From positions 1 to 27,859 of the IMG/VR virus record IMGVR_UViG_3300031759_000122: a DNA stretch of 27,859 bases, one strand, 5' to 3'. This stretch comes from a virus. A program made the translations under genes and the position numbers. Positions 1,194 through 27,436 of this stretch are shown here, one piece after another (the first letter of the stretch is position 1; each line of letters opens with the position of its first letter). The notes beneath the pieces were generated by a model that was not told the origin of the DNA, did no database searches, and saw nothing but the letters and a program-made list of their open reading frames with translations.

Positions 1194-2966
1194 TTATAAA
1201 CATGTACAACTACCATATGTACGAGTGTTTTCTAGGTTCACTGAACATGTAGCACTTCCAGTTACACCATAGACTGTATCGTAAACGTCGCATCTAGCAG
1301 TGCCATACTGTACTGTATCACCGCATTCCCAACAGAATACTGCTGCAGTAAAGCTTGTAGAACTACTTGAAGGAGAAACTATATTAATATTGCCGTTGTC
1401 TATAGACCAACTATAAGTGTAAGAACCTGAACCACCTCCTACGCTTACAGAGTTAGATGTACTTGCGGTACATTCATTAGTGTTAGTACAAGAACCAATA
1501 GCATCCCCGGTACTCATTGTAACTGTTAAGGATACAGGGGACGGAGTAGGTGTTGTTGTAGAAGCTGGGGTTGGGGTAGGATCAGGAGTGCTAGGTGGTG
1601 TGTTAGGTGGTGTAGAAGCTGGGGTATTAGAAGGTACCGGTGTTGGAGTTGGGGTTGAAGTTGGAGTACTTGCTGGGGTAGAAGTAGGTGTAGATGTCGG
1701 TGTTGAAGCTGGGGTACTTGGAGGTGTTCTTGTAGGTGTAGATGTCGGTGTTGAAGCAGGAGTGTTAGGCGGCGTACTTGGTGGTGTATGAGAAGGCGTT
1801 ACAGAAGAACCAGGGGTTTGAGTAGGTGTTTGCGAAGGTGTTGATGGAGGAGTGCTTGGCGGTGTTGAAGTCGGAGTAGAAGTAGGAGTAGAGGCCGGTG
1901 TACCGGTTGGTGTTACTGTTAAAGTAGGGGTAGGTGTAGCAGTAGCTGTTTGAGAAGGCGGTGGTGTAGGTGTTGGAGTAGATGTCGGAGAAGCAGGCGG
2001 TGTAGAAACCGGTGTTACGCTGTTCGTAGGGGTTAATGTAGGAGTATATGTTACTGAAGGTGTTAACGATATAGTAGGTGTTACTGTAGGTGTATATGTA
2101 GGTGTTACCGTTGGAGTAGAAGTGAAAGTAACGGTCGGGGTAACTGTAGGTGTTGCACCTGGTGTTAAACTTATAGTAGGCGTTACTGCTGGGGTGTTCG
2201 TAACTGAAGGTGTTACAGTAACTGAAGGGGTATGAGTAGAAGTAGGTGTTACCGTTGGAGTAGACGTAAATGTAGGTGTTACTGTTGGGGTATAAGTCGG
2301 GGTAGCAGTTGGCGTTAAAGTCGGTGTAGTTGTAGGTGTTAAAGAAGGGGTAAGAGTAGGGGTGATGGACGGAGTTGGAGTAAGAGATATATTTGGAGAT
2401 AACGGAATATAATTTACTACACCAGCTTGATCTTGAGTGTTAAAGAAAAATGCTTGATTTGTATAGTTAGATAACCCTTCAGCAACAATAATTTGCTTAT
2501 TGTTAGTACCCCATGCTCTATTTTTTAATAAATGAACAGAATCAAAAGAAGCAGGAGCCTGAGGTGTTGTAGCAATAGGGTTATATGTTAACCATGTAGA
2601 ATCTGCTTCTACTAATAGATTATATGTATAAGCTGTAAGACTTGGAAACATTGTAGCCGATACAACTACAGATGTTACAGAAGTACCACTTGCTGTATTA
2701 TAAAATGTCCAAACGAAATTACTTCTACTATCAATACCAGCAGTTGCACCTGTAAGAGCGTCTTGTAAACTACTATACGTGTAGTTACGCGTTATAACCT
2801 TTTGAAAGTTAAAAGCTGATAATATATATGTAATTCTTCCAACAGTGTCATTACCAAAATTAATCGCGCTTGGTTGAAACACAACAGTAAGTGGAGAGTA
2901 ACCTGTTAAAGTTACCAATGGAGAGGCCTGATCTGGCTGCGGAAAATTATATGCTAATACAGACAT
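1194..2966 (-). CDS. Pro/Thr-repeat fibre protein with Cys-rich C-terminal domain
   Basis: 590 aa. Residues 1-189 form a globular N-terminal domain I do not recognise. Residues about 190-478 are almost purely Pro, Thr, Ser and Val in units such as TPTVTPT, TPSVT and PPSTP, an extended stalk that could also be glycosylated. Residues 479-590 are a separate Ig/PKD-like domain. It contains [13 protein letters not shown], reminiscent of SprB-type repeats of Bacteroidota adhesins, and eight cysteines (GSC, NEC, FCWEC, RCD, TCS, SCTC), which suggests disulfides or metal binding outside the cell. The start overlaps the stop of the upstream gene (TAATG). The position downstream of baseplate genes and next to an S74 fibre supports a role in host adhesion; no catalytic motif is seen. 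Confidence 0.8.
1533..2396 (-). repeat. Degenerate minisatellite encoding the Pro/Thr stalk
   Basis: This stretch encodes about 288 residues of Pro/Thr-rich units. At DNA level it is a degenerate array of 6-, 12- and 18-base units (for example gtaggtgttactgt on the plus strand). Near-identical longer blocks recur, such as the one around 1675-1770 that reads as [11 protein letters not shown]. Such arrays change length easily by slippage or recombination, so stalk length may vary between relatives. The repetition also creates long spurious readings on the plus strand (1480-1791). Confidence 0.8.
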
Positions 2967-4491: not shown

Positions 4492-6372
4492 TTAACTACC
4501 AACCATTAATTTATAAGTACTTCCAGAAGAATCTTGTATTGTAATATATCCGTTATTGGTAACTGGAGTGTTTACAAATGAACTGTTTAATAGTATATTA
4601 GAAGCACTCAATGTTACCCCAGTTATTGCCCCGCCGGTAATATTAACATTGTTTGCATTTTGTAACGACATACTACCATAAGAAGAAGCTATTGTTATAC
4701 CTCTCATGTTTACAACCACCCCGGTAGTTGTACTTGTAGCTACTAACATTGGTTTGGAAACTTGCCCCACTGTTACAGGTGCTGTAGATGTTAGAGTACC
4801 TGTACTTGTGGGCGATAAGAAGTAGACTGCACCATCTGTTAAACCGGATAAACCTGAAATATAACCATGATATACTATAGTAAATGTGCTACCTGTAGAA
4901 GACTGTACAATGCCAAGTGCTTCAGCATCGGAAGAAGTATCTGCTTCTGCTAATACATAACTACCACCACCAGAAGCTCTTGCAACTACTTGACCGGCAG
5001 AAAAGGAATTTGAGAAAGTAATGGTTTGTATTGTATTACCACCAAACCCGCTATACCCCGATATACCAGAGTAACCAGAAGTTCCTTGACCTGAATACCC
5101 TGAAATACCACTATAACCGGAATACCCAGAAATACCACTAGCAGCATAAGCACCAGGGAGTCCACTATAACCTGAAAAACCTGAAATACCGCTATAGCCA
5201 GAAATGCCACTATAACCGGAATACCCAGAAATACCGCTATAACCAGAGATACCGCTATAACCGGAGTAACCACTAAATCCTGAAATGCCGCTCCATCCAG
5301 AATAACCACTAATACCACTATACCCAGATGTACCTATACCTGAATACCCAGATTTACCAGAGTAACCAGAAACACCTGAACCACTAAATCCTGAAATACC
5401 ACTATACCCGGATGTACCTATACCTGAATAACCGGACGCCCCAGAAACACCTTGCCCTATAGGTGTACGTACCACTGTAAACACTGAACTACCATTATAC
5501 TGATAGGCAGCTGTAATTGGTGAAACGCTTGACGTATAAGCAGAAACCTGTAATAGTATTCTATCAGTAGAAGATAGAGTAGTAATACTTGATGTGGCGT
5601 AAGAAACTTTTTGATACGTAGAAGTAGTATCATTCACTGCTCCACTATCGGCACTTAAAATAAAAGTACCAGTAGAACTAGTGGTCATTGAATATGTATA
5701 TATGCTAAATACAAAATTTGCTGAACCACCCAGCACATAACGATAAAATTCAACATCCCACAAACCAGCGGGTATCTCTGTCACTCCCGGTTCTCCAATT
5801 GGTGTTAGGTACCAACCAAATGCAGTCACCCCGGCGCTAGAAGTAATTATAGCATAATCATCATTAATTGTCGAGCCACCACCGCCTGGCTGTAAAGCCA
5901 TTACTTCATATAAAGCAGGGTTTTGATCGCTGTTAACCTCTTGTAAAAAATATGTTCTACCATAAACAGATGCTCCAACTTGTCCGCTAAAGCCTGAATA
6001 ACCGCTAGGGCCACTATAACCGGAGTAACTAGAGTAACCACTATATCCAGAATAGCTTGAATAACCACTATATCCAGAATAGCTTGAATAACCGCTGTAA
6101 CCGGAATAGCTAGAGTAACCACTATATCCAGACCAACCTGACGTACCAGAATAACCAGAAGTACCCGAGCCAGAATAACCAGACCAACCCGATATACCTG
6201 ATCTACCAGAATAACCAGACCAACCTGAGTTTCCATTACTACCATTTGCTCCTGCCGGGCCAGAATAACCACTGTAACCGGAGTAGGTACCACTAAAACC
6301 ACTCTTACCAGAGTAACCACTGGTACCAGCGCTATTAACTAACATTGATGTATCTACTTTTACTAATGCCAT
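4492..6372 (-). CDS. Collagen-like tail fibre protein with Gly-X-Ser repeats
   Basis: 626 aa in alternating domains. Residues about 16-133 and 310-444 are collagen-type tripeptide arrays, mostly G-Y-S, G-I-S, G-W-S and G-F-S, with local 9-residue units containing YSSYSGYSG. Between them (about 134-309) is a globular, probably beta-sandwich domain beginning YGRTYFL. After the second array comes a C-terminal domain (about 445-626) of a type common in phage fibres: SFSAGQVVARASGG, then LGIVQSS, then LTDGAVYFLSPT and a quickly varying tail. Phage collagen-like segments form triple helices and trimerise fibres. Here Pro is almost absent and Ser is fixed in the third position, unlike animal collagen. 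The gene follows the 333-aa gene by 4 bases, in the baseplate and fibre operon. Two long readings in other minus frames (4986-5318, 5901-6320) are shadows of the repeats. Confidence 0.88.
   Translation of the reverse strand: MALVKVDTSMLVNSAGTSGYSGKSGFSGTYSGYSGYSGPAGANGSNGNSGWSGYSGRSGISGWSGYSGSGTSGYSGTSGWSGYSGYSSYSGYSGYSSYSGYSGYSSYSGYSGYSSYSGYSGPSGYSGFSGQVGASVYGRTYFLQEVNSDQNPALYEVMALQPGGGGSTINDDYAIITSSAGVTAFGWYLTPIGEPGVTEIPAGLWDVEFYRYVLGGSANFVFSIYTYSMTTSSTGTFILSADSGAVNDTTSTYQKVSYATSSITTLSSTDRILLQVSAYTSSVSPITAAYQYNGSSVFTVVRTPIGQGVSGASGYSGIGTSGYSGISGFSGSGVSGYSGKSGYSGIGTSGYSGISGYSGWSGISGFSGYSGYSGISGYSGISGYSGYSGISGYSGISGFSGYSGLPGAYAASGISGYSGYSGISGYSGQGTSGYSGISGYSGFGGNTIQTITFSNSFSAGQVVARASGGGSYVLAEADTSSDAEALGIVQSSTGSTFTIVYHGYISGLSGLTDGAVYFLSPTSTGTLTSTAPVTVGQVSKPMLVATSTTTGVVVNMRGITIASSYGSMSLQNANNVNITGGAITGVTLSASNILLNSSFVNTPVTNNGYITIQDSSGSTYKLMVGS
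5041..5445 (-). repeat. Second Gly-X-Ser (collagen-like) coding array
   Basis: Encodes residues 310-444 of the fibre. The plus strand shows recurrent 9- and 18-base units such as ccagaaataccgctata. The array is interrupted by ASGAS, LPGAYAAS and QGTS, which may be kinks or registration points in a triple helix. Confidence 0.8.
5974..6327 (-). repeat. First Gly-X-Ser (collagen-like) coding array with 27-base tandem units
   Basis: Encodes residues 16-133 of the fibre. Around 6015-6130 a 27-base unit (starting aataaccactatatccaga) is repeated about four times with few changes. Each unit encodes nine residues of the YSGYSSYSG type. Near-identity between neighbouring copies points to recent duplication or homogenisation. 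Confidence 0.8.
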
Positions 6373-23238: not shown

Positions 23239-23898
23239 TTATTTTAAAGAGTTAATAAAGTTAATGATGTGCTCTCTTAAATAGATGTCTACATCCTTTT
23301 TAGGTAAGTTAGAAAGCTTGCCTTCAAGTGTGTTGTACACTTCTTCATAAAAACCGTTGCCTTTTATAATAAAAGATTTGGATTCTAAAATACCTTCTAC
23401 AAACGCACCAGGAGCGGAAGGATCTGCTACAACGTCAATTGTAATGAGTTTCATGTTTTTGACGTAATTGACTCCGTTTCTTTCTTCAAGCTCTCCAAGA
23501 GCTCTTGAAGATACTCCAACCTTTACTCCATCTCTAATTAAGCTTTTTAAGATTTCTCCCAATGGAGTACTGAGTACTTTACTCTTTCCACGGCAAATGT
23601 TGCCGTCCATTCGTAATTCACTTATAAGATGACAGGCACGTTCACTATTGACTGTAGCGCTTTGTGGGTGTTCAAGCTCTCCAAGAGAACGATTTTGTTT
23701 AATAAATTCTTTATTGTAACGCTCAACCTCTTGAGCCATTTCATTAATATCGTAAATACGGTTGTTACGGTTCTTTTCACCAGCTACCATATAAGTACCA
23801 GCAATGTACATTGTAGCTGGTTTATCCTTGTTACCTTCTTCAATTAAGTAATCAAGACCTTCTGTAATTGGATTTTGCGTTATAAGCTTGAGTAACAT
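23239..23898 (-). CDS. gp21: Prohead maturation protease, gp21 type
   Basis: 219 aa, the usual size. The serine-protease elements of the T4 gp21 / herpesvirus assemblin-like fold are present: catalytic His77 in LGELEHPQSATVN (72-84), Ser130-Ser131 in VKVGVSSRALGEL (125-137), and the following strand ITIDVVADPSAPGAFV (152-167), which normally completes the active site. After GILE172|SKS the tail (173-219) has a basic, helical character and probably anchors the enzyme to the core; self-cleavage there fits the (I/L)-x-E rule. It digests the scaffold and trims gp23 before DNA packaging. It is the first gene of the head operon, with CATAAATA 11 bases upstream. Confidence 0.95.
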   Translation of the reverse strand: MLLKLITQNPITEGLDYLIEEGNKDKPATMYIAGTYMVAGEKNRNNRIYDINEMAQEVERYNKEFIKQNRSLGELEHPQSATVNSERACHLISELRMDGNICRGKSKVLSTPLGEILKSLIRDGVKVGVSSRALGELEERNGVNYVKNMKLITIDVVADPSAPGAFVEGILESKSFIIKGNGFYEEVYNTLEGKLSNLPKKDVDIYLREHIINFINSLK

Positions 23899-23958: not shown

Positions 23959-25014
23959 ATGGTTAAACCCAAATATAGTGTAGTTATTCCAACTTATAAC
24001 CACTTGGAAGACTTTTTAAAGCCATGTTTACAGAGTATAATACATTATACGGATTTAACTAATGTAGAAATTATAGTAGTAGCAAATGGATGTGTGGACC
24101 TTACCCATCAGTATGTAGAAGCTCTATCTTATGCATATCCAAGTATTAAGCTCATTAGAGAGAAAGACGGTATTGGGTATACTAAAGCTACAAACCTCGG
24201 CATTAAAGCTGCTCAAGGAGAGTATATCATACTACTGAACAACGATACTCAGCTTTTGTCTCAAGAAAAAAATCAATGGTTACAAATGCTAGAAGCCCCA
24301 TTTCAGGAAGATCCAAGAATGGGTATTACTGGTCCCTTACTACTACATGATAAAATTACACGTTCTAGGTTTGTAGTGTTCTTCTGTGCAATGATACCAA
24401 GGACAATGTTTGATGAAATTGGTTTGTTGGATGAAATATACTCTCCAGGCAGCGGTGAAGATATAGACTTTAGTGTTAAAGTACAAGAAAGAGGGTACAG
24501 AATACATATTGTACCAACAGATCAACTTTCTAAAGTAGATAGTAAAATTATATCTGGAGCGTTTCCAATATATCACTATGCAGAAGGTACCTTCGAGGGT
24601 ATTGAAACATATAGTAACGTTACATTTAAACGTAATAGTTTAATTAACATAAAGAAGTACAATAAAGATATAAAGTTGCACTTGACTGCTGAAAATGATA
24701 ATAATTTACCGGAACATGTAAGAGTACATGGTACTAGCAAATATAGTGAATTAATATTAGACTGGAATAAACTAGACTTTAATGACAATACTGTAAGTGA
24801 AATTGCTATGAATAAGAGTATCGAGCATATATCTTATGCAGATCTAAATACTCACGTAAAGGAGTGGTATAGAGTGTTAAAACCTGAGGGCAGACTGCTG
24901 TTGAAGTTTCATGGCACGCTGAGTGATAGCATTAACGAAGTATTAAAATTAAACCAATTTAAAACCAATATGAATTGGAGCGGTACAGACATAAATTTAA
25001 TAGCATACAAATGA
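23959..25014 (+). CDS. GT2 glycosyltransferase fused to a partial methyltransferase domain
   Basis: 351 aa. Residues 5-190 are a GT-A family 2 glycosyltransferase: YSVVIPTYNHLEDFLKPCL (6-24), VEIIVVANGCVD (36-47), GYTKATNLGIKAAQGEYIILLNNDT (73-97, NND as the metal/nucleotide-sugar site), and GEDIDFSVKVQERGY (166-180, catalytic base region). Residues about 262-350 resemble the second half of a class I methyltransferase: LDFNDNTVSEI (272-282), EHISYADLNTHVKEWYRVLKPEGRLLL (289-315). The SAM-binding GxGxG motif that should come before it is missing, so methyl transfer is doubtful. It probably transfers a sugar to a host surface glycan or to a virion protein. It is first of a three-gene plus-strand cassette, with the stop overlapping the next start (ATGA at 25011). 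Confidence 0.85.
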   Translation: MVKPKYSVVIPTYNHLEDFLKPCLQSIIHYTDLTNVEIIVVANGCVDLTHQYVEALSYAYPSIKLIREKDGIGYTKATNLGIKAAQGEYIILLNNDTQLLSQEKNQWLQMLEAPFQEDPRMGITGPLLLHDKITRSRFVVFFCAMIPRTMFDEIGLLDEIYSPGSGEDIDFSVKVQERGYRIHIVPTDQLSKVDSKIISGAFPIYHYAEGTFEGIETYSNVTFKRNSLINIKKYNKDIKLHLTAENDNNLPEHVRVHGTSKYSELILDWNKLDFNDNTVSEIAMNKSIEHISYADLNTHVKEWYRVLKPEGRLLLKFHGTLSDSINEVLKLNQFKTNMNWSGTDINLIAYK

Positions 25015-26060
25015 TTACAACAAAAGTAACAGCTACAGTTTCAACTAAGGGTAGATTTCATACTACCTTTCCTTTAGTATTAACCTCTTTAGCTAATCAA
25101 ACACTTAAACCTTCCCGTCTTATTATATATGATGATAATGATACTATGGAAGATTTAAGAGATAATGAAATATATAAAAATTTGTTTTGTTTGTTAAATA
25201 GAGTAGGTATTGCATGGGAAGTAACGCCCGGTGCCCATAAAGGTCAAATATGGAACCATCAACAAGCCTTGACAGATGTTACAAGTGAGTATATTTGGCG
25301 TTTAGATGATGATAATGTAATGGCTACTAACACATTAGAGGAGTTATACAATTACATACAAACCGATCCTAAAATAGGTGCGGTTGGGCCTCTTATTCTT
25401 GACCCTAAAGCAGATATTGGACATAAGTTAGCTTCTAATAAAATAGAAGATATATTTTTAGGTGTTAATATACAATGGTGTGATACTGACCGTCATGCAT
25501 TTATAGATGTAGATCATTTACAGGGTAGTACGTTTTTGTACCGTAAAGAAGCTGGTAAACATGGTTATGAATTAAAACTATCAAAAGTAGGTCATAGAGA
25601 AGAAACTATCTTTACATATGAAATGAAAAGAGCCGGCTGGAGATTAGTTGTACTAACCGGAATAAAAACCTGGCACATGCGCTTTGGTGCCGGGGGTATA
25701 AGAAGCTACCAACAAATTAAAATGTTTGAAGAAGATGAAAAGATATTCCACGATTATATTAAAAAATGGAATGTAAAACCAGCTTTAGTAAAAGTTATAC
25801 CTTTAGATTCGGGTATTGGTGACCATTTTGCGTTTAGAAGCATATTACCCGATGTAAAAAAGAAATATAAAAACCATAGAATTATTATCGGGGCTTGTTT
25901 TCCAGAAGCATTCGAGGGCGAAGAAGGCATTGAAATAGTAAGTTTAGCTGAATCTGCAGCATTTACTAAAGTAGAAGAATATAACATATACGCCTGGATG
26001 GATAATAATAATTGGAAAGGTTCTTTAGCAGAAGCATACAAAACAGCACTTACTCGATGA
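25011..26060 (+). CDS. GT2-like glycosyltransferase with N-terminal half of a GT9-like domain
   Basis: 349 aa. The start is set at 25011 because this ATG overlaps the previous stop (ATGA); a longer reading from 24975 lies inside the upstream gene. Residues 1-250 are a GT-A fold: VTATVSTKGRFHTTFPLVLTSL, IIYDDNDT, YIWRLDDDNVM (94-104, DxD motif), and then a GHREETIFTYEMKRAGWRLVV region (194-214) typical of GT2 enzymes. From about 258 a different domain begins, VKVIPLDSGIGDHFAFRSILPDV, the nucleotide-fold start of GT9/heptosyltransferase-type GT-B enzymes (GxGD followed by a helix). It stops after about 90 residues, just where the second GT-B half would begin. That half is the next gene, which overlaps by ATGA. 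Confidence 0.83.
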   Translation: MITTKVTATVSTKGRFHTTFPLVLTSLANQTLKPSRLIIYDDNDTMEDLRDNEIYKNLFCLLNRVGIAWEVTPGAHKGQIWNHQQALTDVTSEYIWRLDDDNVMATNTLEELYNYIQTDPKIGAVGPLILDPKADIGHKLASNKIEDIFLGVNIQWCDTDRHAFIDVDHLQGSTFLYRKEAGKHGYELKLSKVGHREETIFTYEMKRAGWRLVVLTGIKTWHMRFGAGGIRSYQQIKMFEEDEKIFHDYIKKWNVKPALVKVIPLDSGIGDHFAFRSILPDVKKKYKNHRIIIGACFPEAFEGEEGIEIVSLAESAAFTKVEEYNIYAWMDNNNWKGSLAEAYKTALTR

Positions 26061-26521
26061 AACAAGTACTCATAAGTCCATTTGCACAAAATTTACGTAA
26101 CGGTAAAGAAAACCCTAAAAACTTTCCACACTGGAAAGAGTTGGTAGCTTTAATGCAAGCTAATGACATTAAAGTAATTCAAATAGGAGCAGCTAAAGAC
26201 AAACCCGTAGAGGGGGTAACTGATTTTAGGCAAGGTCTAAAACTATCTCAAATAAAAGACTTAGTAAATGAATGTGATTGTTGGATTTCTGTAGATAGCT
26301 TTTTACAACACATGTGCGCTTATTATAAACTTAAAAGAGGTATTGTTATATTTGCACAATCAGACCCTAAGATTTTTGGATATACTCGTAATATTAATTT
26401 GTTAAAGAACAAATCGTATTTGAGAGATAAACAGTTTTGGTTATGGGAACAATGCGACTATAAACAAGAAGCATTTGTTAGTGCTCAAGAAGTACTGGAT
26501 ACTTTACTAAAACTATTGTAG
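26057..26521 (+). CDS. C-terminal half of a GT9-like (heptosyltransferase-type) glycosyltransferase
   Basis: 154 aa. The start at 26057 is chosen because its ATG overlaps the upstream stop (ATGA); an in-frame ATG at 26012 lies inside the upstream gene. The sequence is the donor-binding Rossmann half of GT9 enzymes: LISPFAQN (5-12), FPHWKELVALMQANDIKVIQIGA (23-45), then SQIKDLVNECDCWISVDSFLQHMCAYY (64-90, the DSxxxH donor-site block) and GIVIFAQSDPKIFGY. No first half is encoded in this gene. The missing half is the end of the gene before, so the two chains probably associate to form one GT-B enzyme. Alternatively the pair is a decaying fusion. Both readings are inference; the family resemblance is clear. 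Confidence 0.82.
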   Translation: MKQVLISPFAQNLRNGKENPKNFPHWKELVALMQANDIKVIQIGAAKDKPVEGVTDFRQGLKLSQIKDLVNECDCWISVDSFLQHMCAYYKLKRGIVIFAQSDPKIFGYTRNINLLKNKSYLRDKQFWLWEQCDYKQEAFVSAQEVLDTLLKLL

Positions 26522-26542: not shown

Positions 26543-27436
26543 ATGGCTAATCCTAACAGCACTGTAGGTCCACAAGACTTTCTATCTACAAATTTAAATA
26601 GCAGAATTTCAAGCTATGATATGCTTGCGGAGCGTATCTTTTTTCAGCTCGGTGCGCCTGTAATTAATCTTGAAATAGCATGCGTAGCTACATACGACAT
26701 GATAGCCTATGCTATTGAAATGTATTCAAAGTTTACCCCTGGTACGGAAGAGTTAATTGCGTTTGATAGTTCTCTTTATACAGCAGGTCAAGGTATAAAG
26801 ATGGATACTCTTATTAATAATACTTTAAACCCAGAAGTATCAGCTTTAAGTTCTACTTTCCAATCAGGCTGGGATGTTGATTTAAATAGTTATAGAAAAG
26901 TAATAGATGTAACATCGTTTAATGTAGGTACTAATAACGGTGTTAATACATTGTTTACTATTGAACAATCAATGGCTCAACAAATGCACTTTGCTTATTC
27001 TTTAGGTAGTAAAGCATTTGACGTTATTTCATGGCATATTTTAAAGGATTGGTTAAAAACACGTGAAAAGGTATTCGCACAACAGCCTTATTTCCGTTTT
27101 GACCCACGTACACAAGTTTTACGTATTACCCCTGACCCAGCACAGCAAAACTATATGGGTAATGATCAATATTGGGCTATTGTTGCCTGTCGCATGGAAC
27201 GCCCAATTAAGGATCTAGTTAAAGAGCGTTGGGTAATGGAGTATGCAAAAGCTCTTGTTAAGATTAACATAGCAAATACTCGTGGTAAGTTTCAAAACAC
27301 TCAATTATTCGGTAGTGGTACTTTACAATACCAAGAGTTAATGACTCAAGGTACTACAGAAAAGAAAGAACTGGAAGATCAGTTAATGACTACCCGTCAA
27401 GAAGATCAAGAACCCCCCGGATTTTTTATGGGCTGA
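26543..27436 (+). CDS. Probable neck protein, gp13-like
   Basis: 297 aa, close to T4 gp13 (309). The N-terminus contains ERIFFQLGAPVINLEIACVATYDMIAYAIEMYSKFTPGTEELIAFD (about 30-75). This matches the LGAPxINVEL...D.I..ALE.Y.EY motif of gp13-type neck proteins in T4-like phages. The middle is beta-rich, then comes KTREKVFAQQPYFRFDPRTQVLRITPDP, and a conserved helix VKERWVMEYAKALVKINIANTRGKFQN (about 225-252) followed by a disordered Glu/Gln-rich tail ending PPGFFMG. gp13 with gp14 closes the head-to-tail junction. It is transcribed opposite to the head genes and directly after the glycosyltransferase cassette. Confidence 0.7.
   Translation: MANPNSTVGPQDFLSTNLNSRISSYDMLAERIFFQLGAPVINLEIACVATYDMIAYAIEMYSKFTPGTEELIAFDSSLYTAGQGIKMDTLINNTLNPEVSALSSTFQSGWDVDLNSYRKVIDVTSFNVGTNNGVNTLFTIEQSMAQQMHFAYSLGSKAFDVISWHILKDWLKTREKVFAQQPYFRFDPRTQVLRITPDPAQQNYMGNDQYWAIVACRMERPIKDLVKERWVMEYAKALVKINIANTRGKFQNTQLFGSGTLQYQELMTQGTTEKKELEDQLMTTRQEDQEPPGFFMG

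Follow-up and report, generated by a model that had tools for sequence, protein, structure and literature searches.

The window, the whole 27,859-nucleotide stretch of viral DNA that was analysed, encodes a GT9-type glycosyltransferase divided between two overlapping genes, and this two-gene arrangement is real and conserved. We infer, with high confidence, that the two products assemble into one active GT9 (heptosyltransferase)-type GT-B enzyme whose acceptor lobe is tethered to a GT-A enzyme. The pair belongs to a block of three close-packed genes on the + strand (23959-26521), both junctions of which are ATGA overlaps (Table 1). At the second junction the ATG of chain 2 (26057-26059) overlaps the TGA of chain 1 (26058-26060); chain 2 ends with the TAG at 26519-26521. 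Two tailed-phage genes flank the block, one for a head maturation protease at 23239-23898 (- strand) and one for a head-tail adaptor protein at 26543-27436. A preliminary description of this DNA had reported the split, and its coordinates, frame and motifs proved correct. The first half lies at the C-terminus of a GT2-type protein (GT2 by Pfam, with GIGDHFAFRSILPDV at 25812-25856), and the second is a separate 154-aa gene in the -1 frame that starts at the ATGA at 26057, contains VDSFLQHM and has a C-terminal match to Pfam Glyco_transf_9.

Table 1. Features of the split glycosyltransferase locus and of a repeat protein in the window.
Feature	Position	Strand	Basis
SGYSG-repeat protein, 626 aa, collagen-like/tail-fibre-like	4492-6372	-	Pfam Collagen 2e-22; PHROG tail fibre
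GT2 glycosyltransferase with C-terminal methyltransferase-like segment, upstream neighbour	23959-25014	+	Pfam Glycos_transf_2 1e-20, Methyltransf_11 3.9e-06
ATGA overlap, upstream GT2 gene to chain 1 gene	25011	+	Sequence
Chain 1: GT2 (GT-A) domain (~residues 1-259) and C-terminal GT9-type N-lobe (~260-349)	25011-26060	+	Pfam, AlphaFold2, GT-A matches
GT9-type N-lobe (acceptor side), end of chain 1	25788-26057	+	Alignment A3; fused to C-lobe in L263, L278
GIGDHFAFRSILPDV motif, C-terminus of chain 1	25812-25856	+	Asp at 25821-25823 matches D13, the catalytic base of WaaC
ATGA stop/start overlap of chains 1 and 2, second gene in -1 frame	26057-26060	+	Sequence
Chain 2: GT9-type C-lobe (donor side), separate gene, 154 aa	26057-26521	+	Pfam GT9 2.6e-06
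Lys21 of chain 2 (NPKNFP), corresponds to WaaC K192	26117-26119	+	Invariant in alignment A1; profile alignment; codon checked
DSFLQH motif of chain 2, Asp80 corresponds to WaaC D261	26294-26311	+	D80 and H85 invariant in alignment A1

Residues 1-259 of chain 1 carry all the marks of a GT2 enzyme: a match to Pfam Glycos_transf_2 (PF00535; residues 23-136, 1e-10, 42.1 bits versus a cut-off of 23.3), GT-A fold matches of up to Z 19.9 and a DxD-like motif, RLDDDN. The AlphaFold2 model of chain 1 has a pLDDT of 90.6 and a pTM of 0.85. Chain 2 matches Pfam Glyco_transf_9 (PF01075) at 2.6e-06 (27.4 bits versus a curated cut-off of 22) over profile positions 117-226 of 247, i.e. the C-terminal part only, and 26 of 31 relatives match the same family (E <= 0.01). 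The N-lobe, when searched alone against Pfam, gave no GT9 match; its identity is therefore taken from the natural fusions and from structure (see below). WaaC was dropped as a label for the split enzyme, since its score against the LPS heptosyltransferase I equivalog (NCBIfam TIGR02193) was 19.8 bits, far under the cut-off of 185.3. GT9 enzymes are usually single polypeptides; here there are two genes, both in the window and in nearly all relatives, and among the matches listed only two relatives (L263 and L278) have a single chain.

A change of frame within an apparent single enzyme often signals an indel, and an assembly indel near 26057 had been named at the outset as a result that would overturn the split. 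The probability that the split stems from faulty assembly or sequencing, or from a gene in decay, is nevertheless negligible. Six independent contigs from different samples have a C-half 100% identical to that of the window and an identical junction, and dozens of diverged contigs keep the junction too. The cultured Methylophilaceae phage P19250A, whose genome is complete, carries the same pair with the ATGA overlap (P19250A_0025 and P19250A_0026, both annotated as hypothetical proteins and preceded by a methyltransferase-like gene). Values of dN/dS are ~ 0.07-0.18 for chain 2 among close relatives and well below 1 in both parts, both of which are under purifying selection. Conservation thus refutes an indel or pseudogene. 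A bacterial origin of the pair was also rejected: the genome collection yielded only two loci, both split and both with phage-like flanks.

Viral contigs were scanned with the C-lobe (80 loci), with a C-lobe profile (the best 80 of > 560 confirmed relatives) and twice with the N-lobe (80 loci each, with some repeats among them). Among the matches listed, 160 of the 161 loci from the C-lobe searches contain an N-lobe gene, fused to the C-lobe in none; the one locus that lacks it, L119, runs into the end of its contig. All scans together gave, again among the matches listed, 183 non-redundant split pairs, 150 of them with the exact 4-nt overlap. This recurrence, like the identical junctions of the six contigs, goes far past what chance would give. 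When the C-lobes listed were clustered at 70% identity (n = 72), the split was retained in 70 clusters: 51 have the 4-nt overlap, 10 are separated, 7 show other close spacing and 2 other arrangements, the remaining 2 being fused. A 4-nt overlap is also seen upstream, where the preceding gene runs into the GT2 gene, in 58 of 167 cases listed. These phages thus tend in general to pack their genes with tight overlaps, but such overlaps are commoner between N-lobe and C-lobe. Different partners for the two halves had been put forward as a second possible refutation; we found no systematic change of partner, and the pair is almost always together.

The fused homologues that the preliminary description had proposed to look for do exist. 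In two phage contigs, L278 and L263, one chain comprises GT2, N-lobe and C-lobe. They are sisters (support 0.998) and are placed among split lineages in a midpoint-rooted tree; this nesting suggests one re-fusion, with the root of the tree being uncertain. The N + C part of L278 (259 residues) was modelled with AlphaFold2 from an alignment of 57 rows, six of which span both lobes (the two natural fusions and four that read through TAA), giving a pLDDT of 95.9 and a pTM of 0.90 for what is another phage's single chain, 30-39% identical over its halves to the two chains of the window. All 30 Foldseek matches of this model with E < 0.001 are GT9 heptosyltransferases (TibC, WaaC, WaaF and a Veillonella GT9). 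In VIA-align the model aligned over both lobes with TibC (4rap; Z 18.0, 240 residues, rmsd 3.8), WaaC (2h1f; Z 17.3, 227 residues, rmsd 4.0), the Veillonella GT9 (3tov; Z 17.2) and WaaF (1psw; Z 16.4). Lower scores were obtained for two chloroplast NDH-complex chains (Z 12.7-12.9), for epimerases and other GT-B chains (~ Z 9-11) and for MurG (Z 9.7, C-lobe only). The model of the natural fusion therefore has the two-lobe GT-B fold of WaaC/WaaF (Z 16.4-18.0) and aligns across both lobes with complete GT9 enzymes. The split falls at the domain boundary.

In WaaC, the mutations D13A, D261A and K192A reduce activity by ~ 4700-, ~ 2000- and ~ 900-fold respectively (PMC5713226). Counterparts of D13 (25821, chain 1), K192 (26117) and D261 (26294, both chain 2) are all present and are invariant in our alignments. 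In 28 N-lobe relatives (31-77% identity) the residues G-D-H are invariant, and GxGDH occurs in nearly all of the 182 non-redundant N-lobes among the matches listed. Residue 7 of the L278 model meets residue 1 of WaaC, which places the GxGDH Asp (19) on D13 if the stretch is ungapped. The alignment of the C-lobe profile to WaaC starts at residue 192 and pairs the Lys of NPK with K192 and the Asp of DSF with D261, as counted from the printed profile alignment, with the DSF motif of chain 2 aligned to VDTGLSH. Of 195 C-lobe matches listed, 190 have the DSFLQH motif. Exceptions are three C-lobes (L269-L271) whose motif Asp is replaced by Glu and a paralogue in L116 with GMDDH. Because the D13 counterpart sits on chain 1 and those of K192 and D261 on chain 2, each chain by itself lacks part of the site. 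The L116 paralogue (L116:1813-2885) is a second, adjacent GT2-N-lobe copy in which GMDDH replaces GMGDH; behind it comes a shortened C-lobe start (ORF 2775-2885), and it is likely a decaying duplicate.

These data are consistent with a model in which the compact N-lobe of chain 1 would contribute the acceptor side and, in the Asp of GIGDH, the catalytic base, the C-lobe of chain 2 would bind the nucleotide sugar and contribute the counterparts of WaaC K192 and D261, and the active site would lie in the cleft between the two polypeptides. Since the N-lobe is covalently joined to the GT2 enzyme, the complex would hold two different, adjoining sugar-transfer sites, and it probably adds consecutive sugars, in a presumed order, to one acceptor, for which a phage structural protein and a host surface glycan are candidates. 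The idea, first suggested from the gene layout, that both chains make up a single GT-B enzyme attached to a GT-A enzyme is supported by the fusions, the fold of L278, the divided residues and the way the two genes travel together; the complex itself we infer. We think it improbable that the lobes are made separately and share no active site, the N-lobe being a GT2 remnant or docking tail and the C-lobe working alone or with another partner. Such an explanation would accommodate the pairs parted by other genes and two contigs (L244 and L274; 38 and 29 kb, probably fragments) that have an N-lobe without a C-lobe. It does not explain the GxGDH Asp, which a remnant would not need and which is kept almost without exception, nor the natural fusions or the near-perfect co-occurrence of the lobes. 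N- and C-lobe distances are moreover correlated (r = 0.84, 196 pairs), some of which would arise from genome linkage alone. Co-occurrence and the conserved N-lobe Asp also make it unlikely that the C-lobe is an ordinary stand-alone enzyme. On the same contig as L122, L323:982-1911 encodes a distinct protein of 309 aa that matches the C-lobe profile weakly; it may be a GT9-like relative in single-chain form, in a phage that has the split pair as well.

For the shared-site enzyme, the ATGA overlap probably couples the synthesis of chain 2 to that of chain 1 during translation. The preliminary description went further and saw in stop/start coupling a means of making equal amounts of the two chains. 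For the clusters that have the 4-nt overlap (51 of 72) this is plausible, but coupling is not essential, given the separated lineages. We examined the gene between the lobes in nine loci. In six (L139, L142, L153, L154, L155 and L124) a methyltransferase-like gene of ~ 163 aa sits exactly between them, overlapping each neighbour by 4 nt, and in L122 the intervening gene is GT2-like. In some lineages the lobe genes are up to ~ 1.1 kb apart and both lobes are still present, so a direct stop/start link from one lobe to the other is not essential. One further contig (L037:96-4979) has a 1627-aa ORF, a phage glycosylation mega-enzyme with several GT2-like and methyltransferase-like domains and the GT9 N-lobe, and its C-lobe is a separate gene.

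The -1 frame of the second gene in the window and the single-chain fusions in two relatives raise the question of whether programmed frameshifting joins the frames, so that some GT2-N-C fusion is also produced. We regard this as very improbable. No slippery heptamer is evident by eye at the junction in the window, and the junction sequence differs among relatives. In L246 and L250 the lobes share a frame and are separated by a stop, with AGGAG-like sites ahead of the second ATG; other pairs have a whole gene in between. Same-frame stops and intervening genes mean that a fusion product is not needed. Since the junction sequence is not conserved and the genes of many pairs are not direct neighbours, a programmed frameshift was rejected.

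Genes for Ser-Gly-repeat proteins (SGYSG type) lie near the split pair in 77 of 290 loci, drawn from partly overlapping sets among the matches listed, and 75 are on the same strand. None was found around the major head protein in 80 control loci of related phages; as the control is a different genome region, this speaks for local enrichment, not function. The Ser-Gly-repeat neighbours fit a virion-fibre acceptor. Long Thr/Pro/Ser repeats (TPTPT-like) occur in tail-region proteins of the window (1194-2966 and 2-595, both - strand), another possible target of O-glycosylation. Phage enzymes of this sort are usually proposed to modify the host surface (PMC7029224). We speculate, while holding it rather unlikely as a whole, that a phage-made assembly line, an obligate two-chain GT9-type enzyme tethered to a GT-A enzyme, places one sugar after another on the phage's own tail fibre with its Ser-Gly (collagen-like) repeats, the gene junction being a slot for further sugar-modifying modules.

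Aquatic T4-like phages (pelagimyophages) likewise have glycosyltransferase genes in or near the structural, host-recognition module; that source names mainly GT8, and the passages considered describe no split GT-B (PMC7029224). Our search of open-licence literature found no split or heterodimeric glycosyltransferase under such a name, and earlier reports are possible. The LPS core enzymes WaaC and WaaF resemble the L278 model over both lobes (Z 16.4-17.3), and D13, K192 and D261 have counterparts; they are, however, single chains of ~ 320-350 aa with only ~ 15% identity, and ADP-heptose is not indicated as the donor here. TibC, of the TibC/Aah autotransporter heptosyltransferases, is the top structural match (Z 18.0) and has a similarly compact N-lobe (~ 98 residues, catalytic Asp-110; PMC4358343). 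TibC/Aah enzymes are single-chain and dodecameric, with an iron finger and a β-barrel domain, both of which are absent from the 259-residue L278 model.

The eukaryotic GlcNAc transferase Alg13/Alg14 and bacterial EpsE/EpsF are split GT-B enzymes; among them the split form is widespread and has been re-fused independently (PMC8993221). Like these, the phage enzyme would be a GT-B cut at the domain boundary into an acceptor-lobe and a donor-lobe chain with the site between them, and its lobes are indeed on separate genes. Alg13/Alg14 and EpsE/EpsF are GT1/GT28-related and cellular, whereas the phage pair is GT9-type; Alg14 is membrane-anchored and has no GT-A fusion, whereas the phage N-lobe is only ~ 85 aa and lies within a GT2 protein. 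Since the closest structures are GT9 (Z 16-18) and MurG scores lower, the pair may work like Alg13/Alg14 but is not classed as one. The rare re-fused and gene-separated relatives offer a natural series for asking why the enzyme stays split, and P19250A a laboratory phage for testing it. If the model is correct, split GT-B enzymes, familiar from Alg13/Alg14 and EpsE/EpsF, would also occur in the GT9 family and in phages, where a minimal acceptor lobe is borne on another glycosyltransferase.
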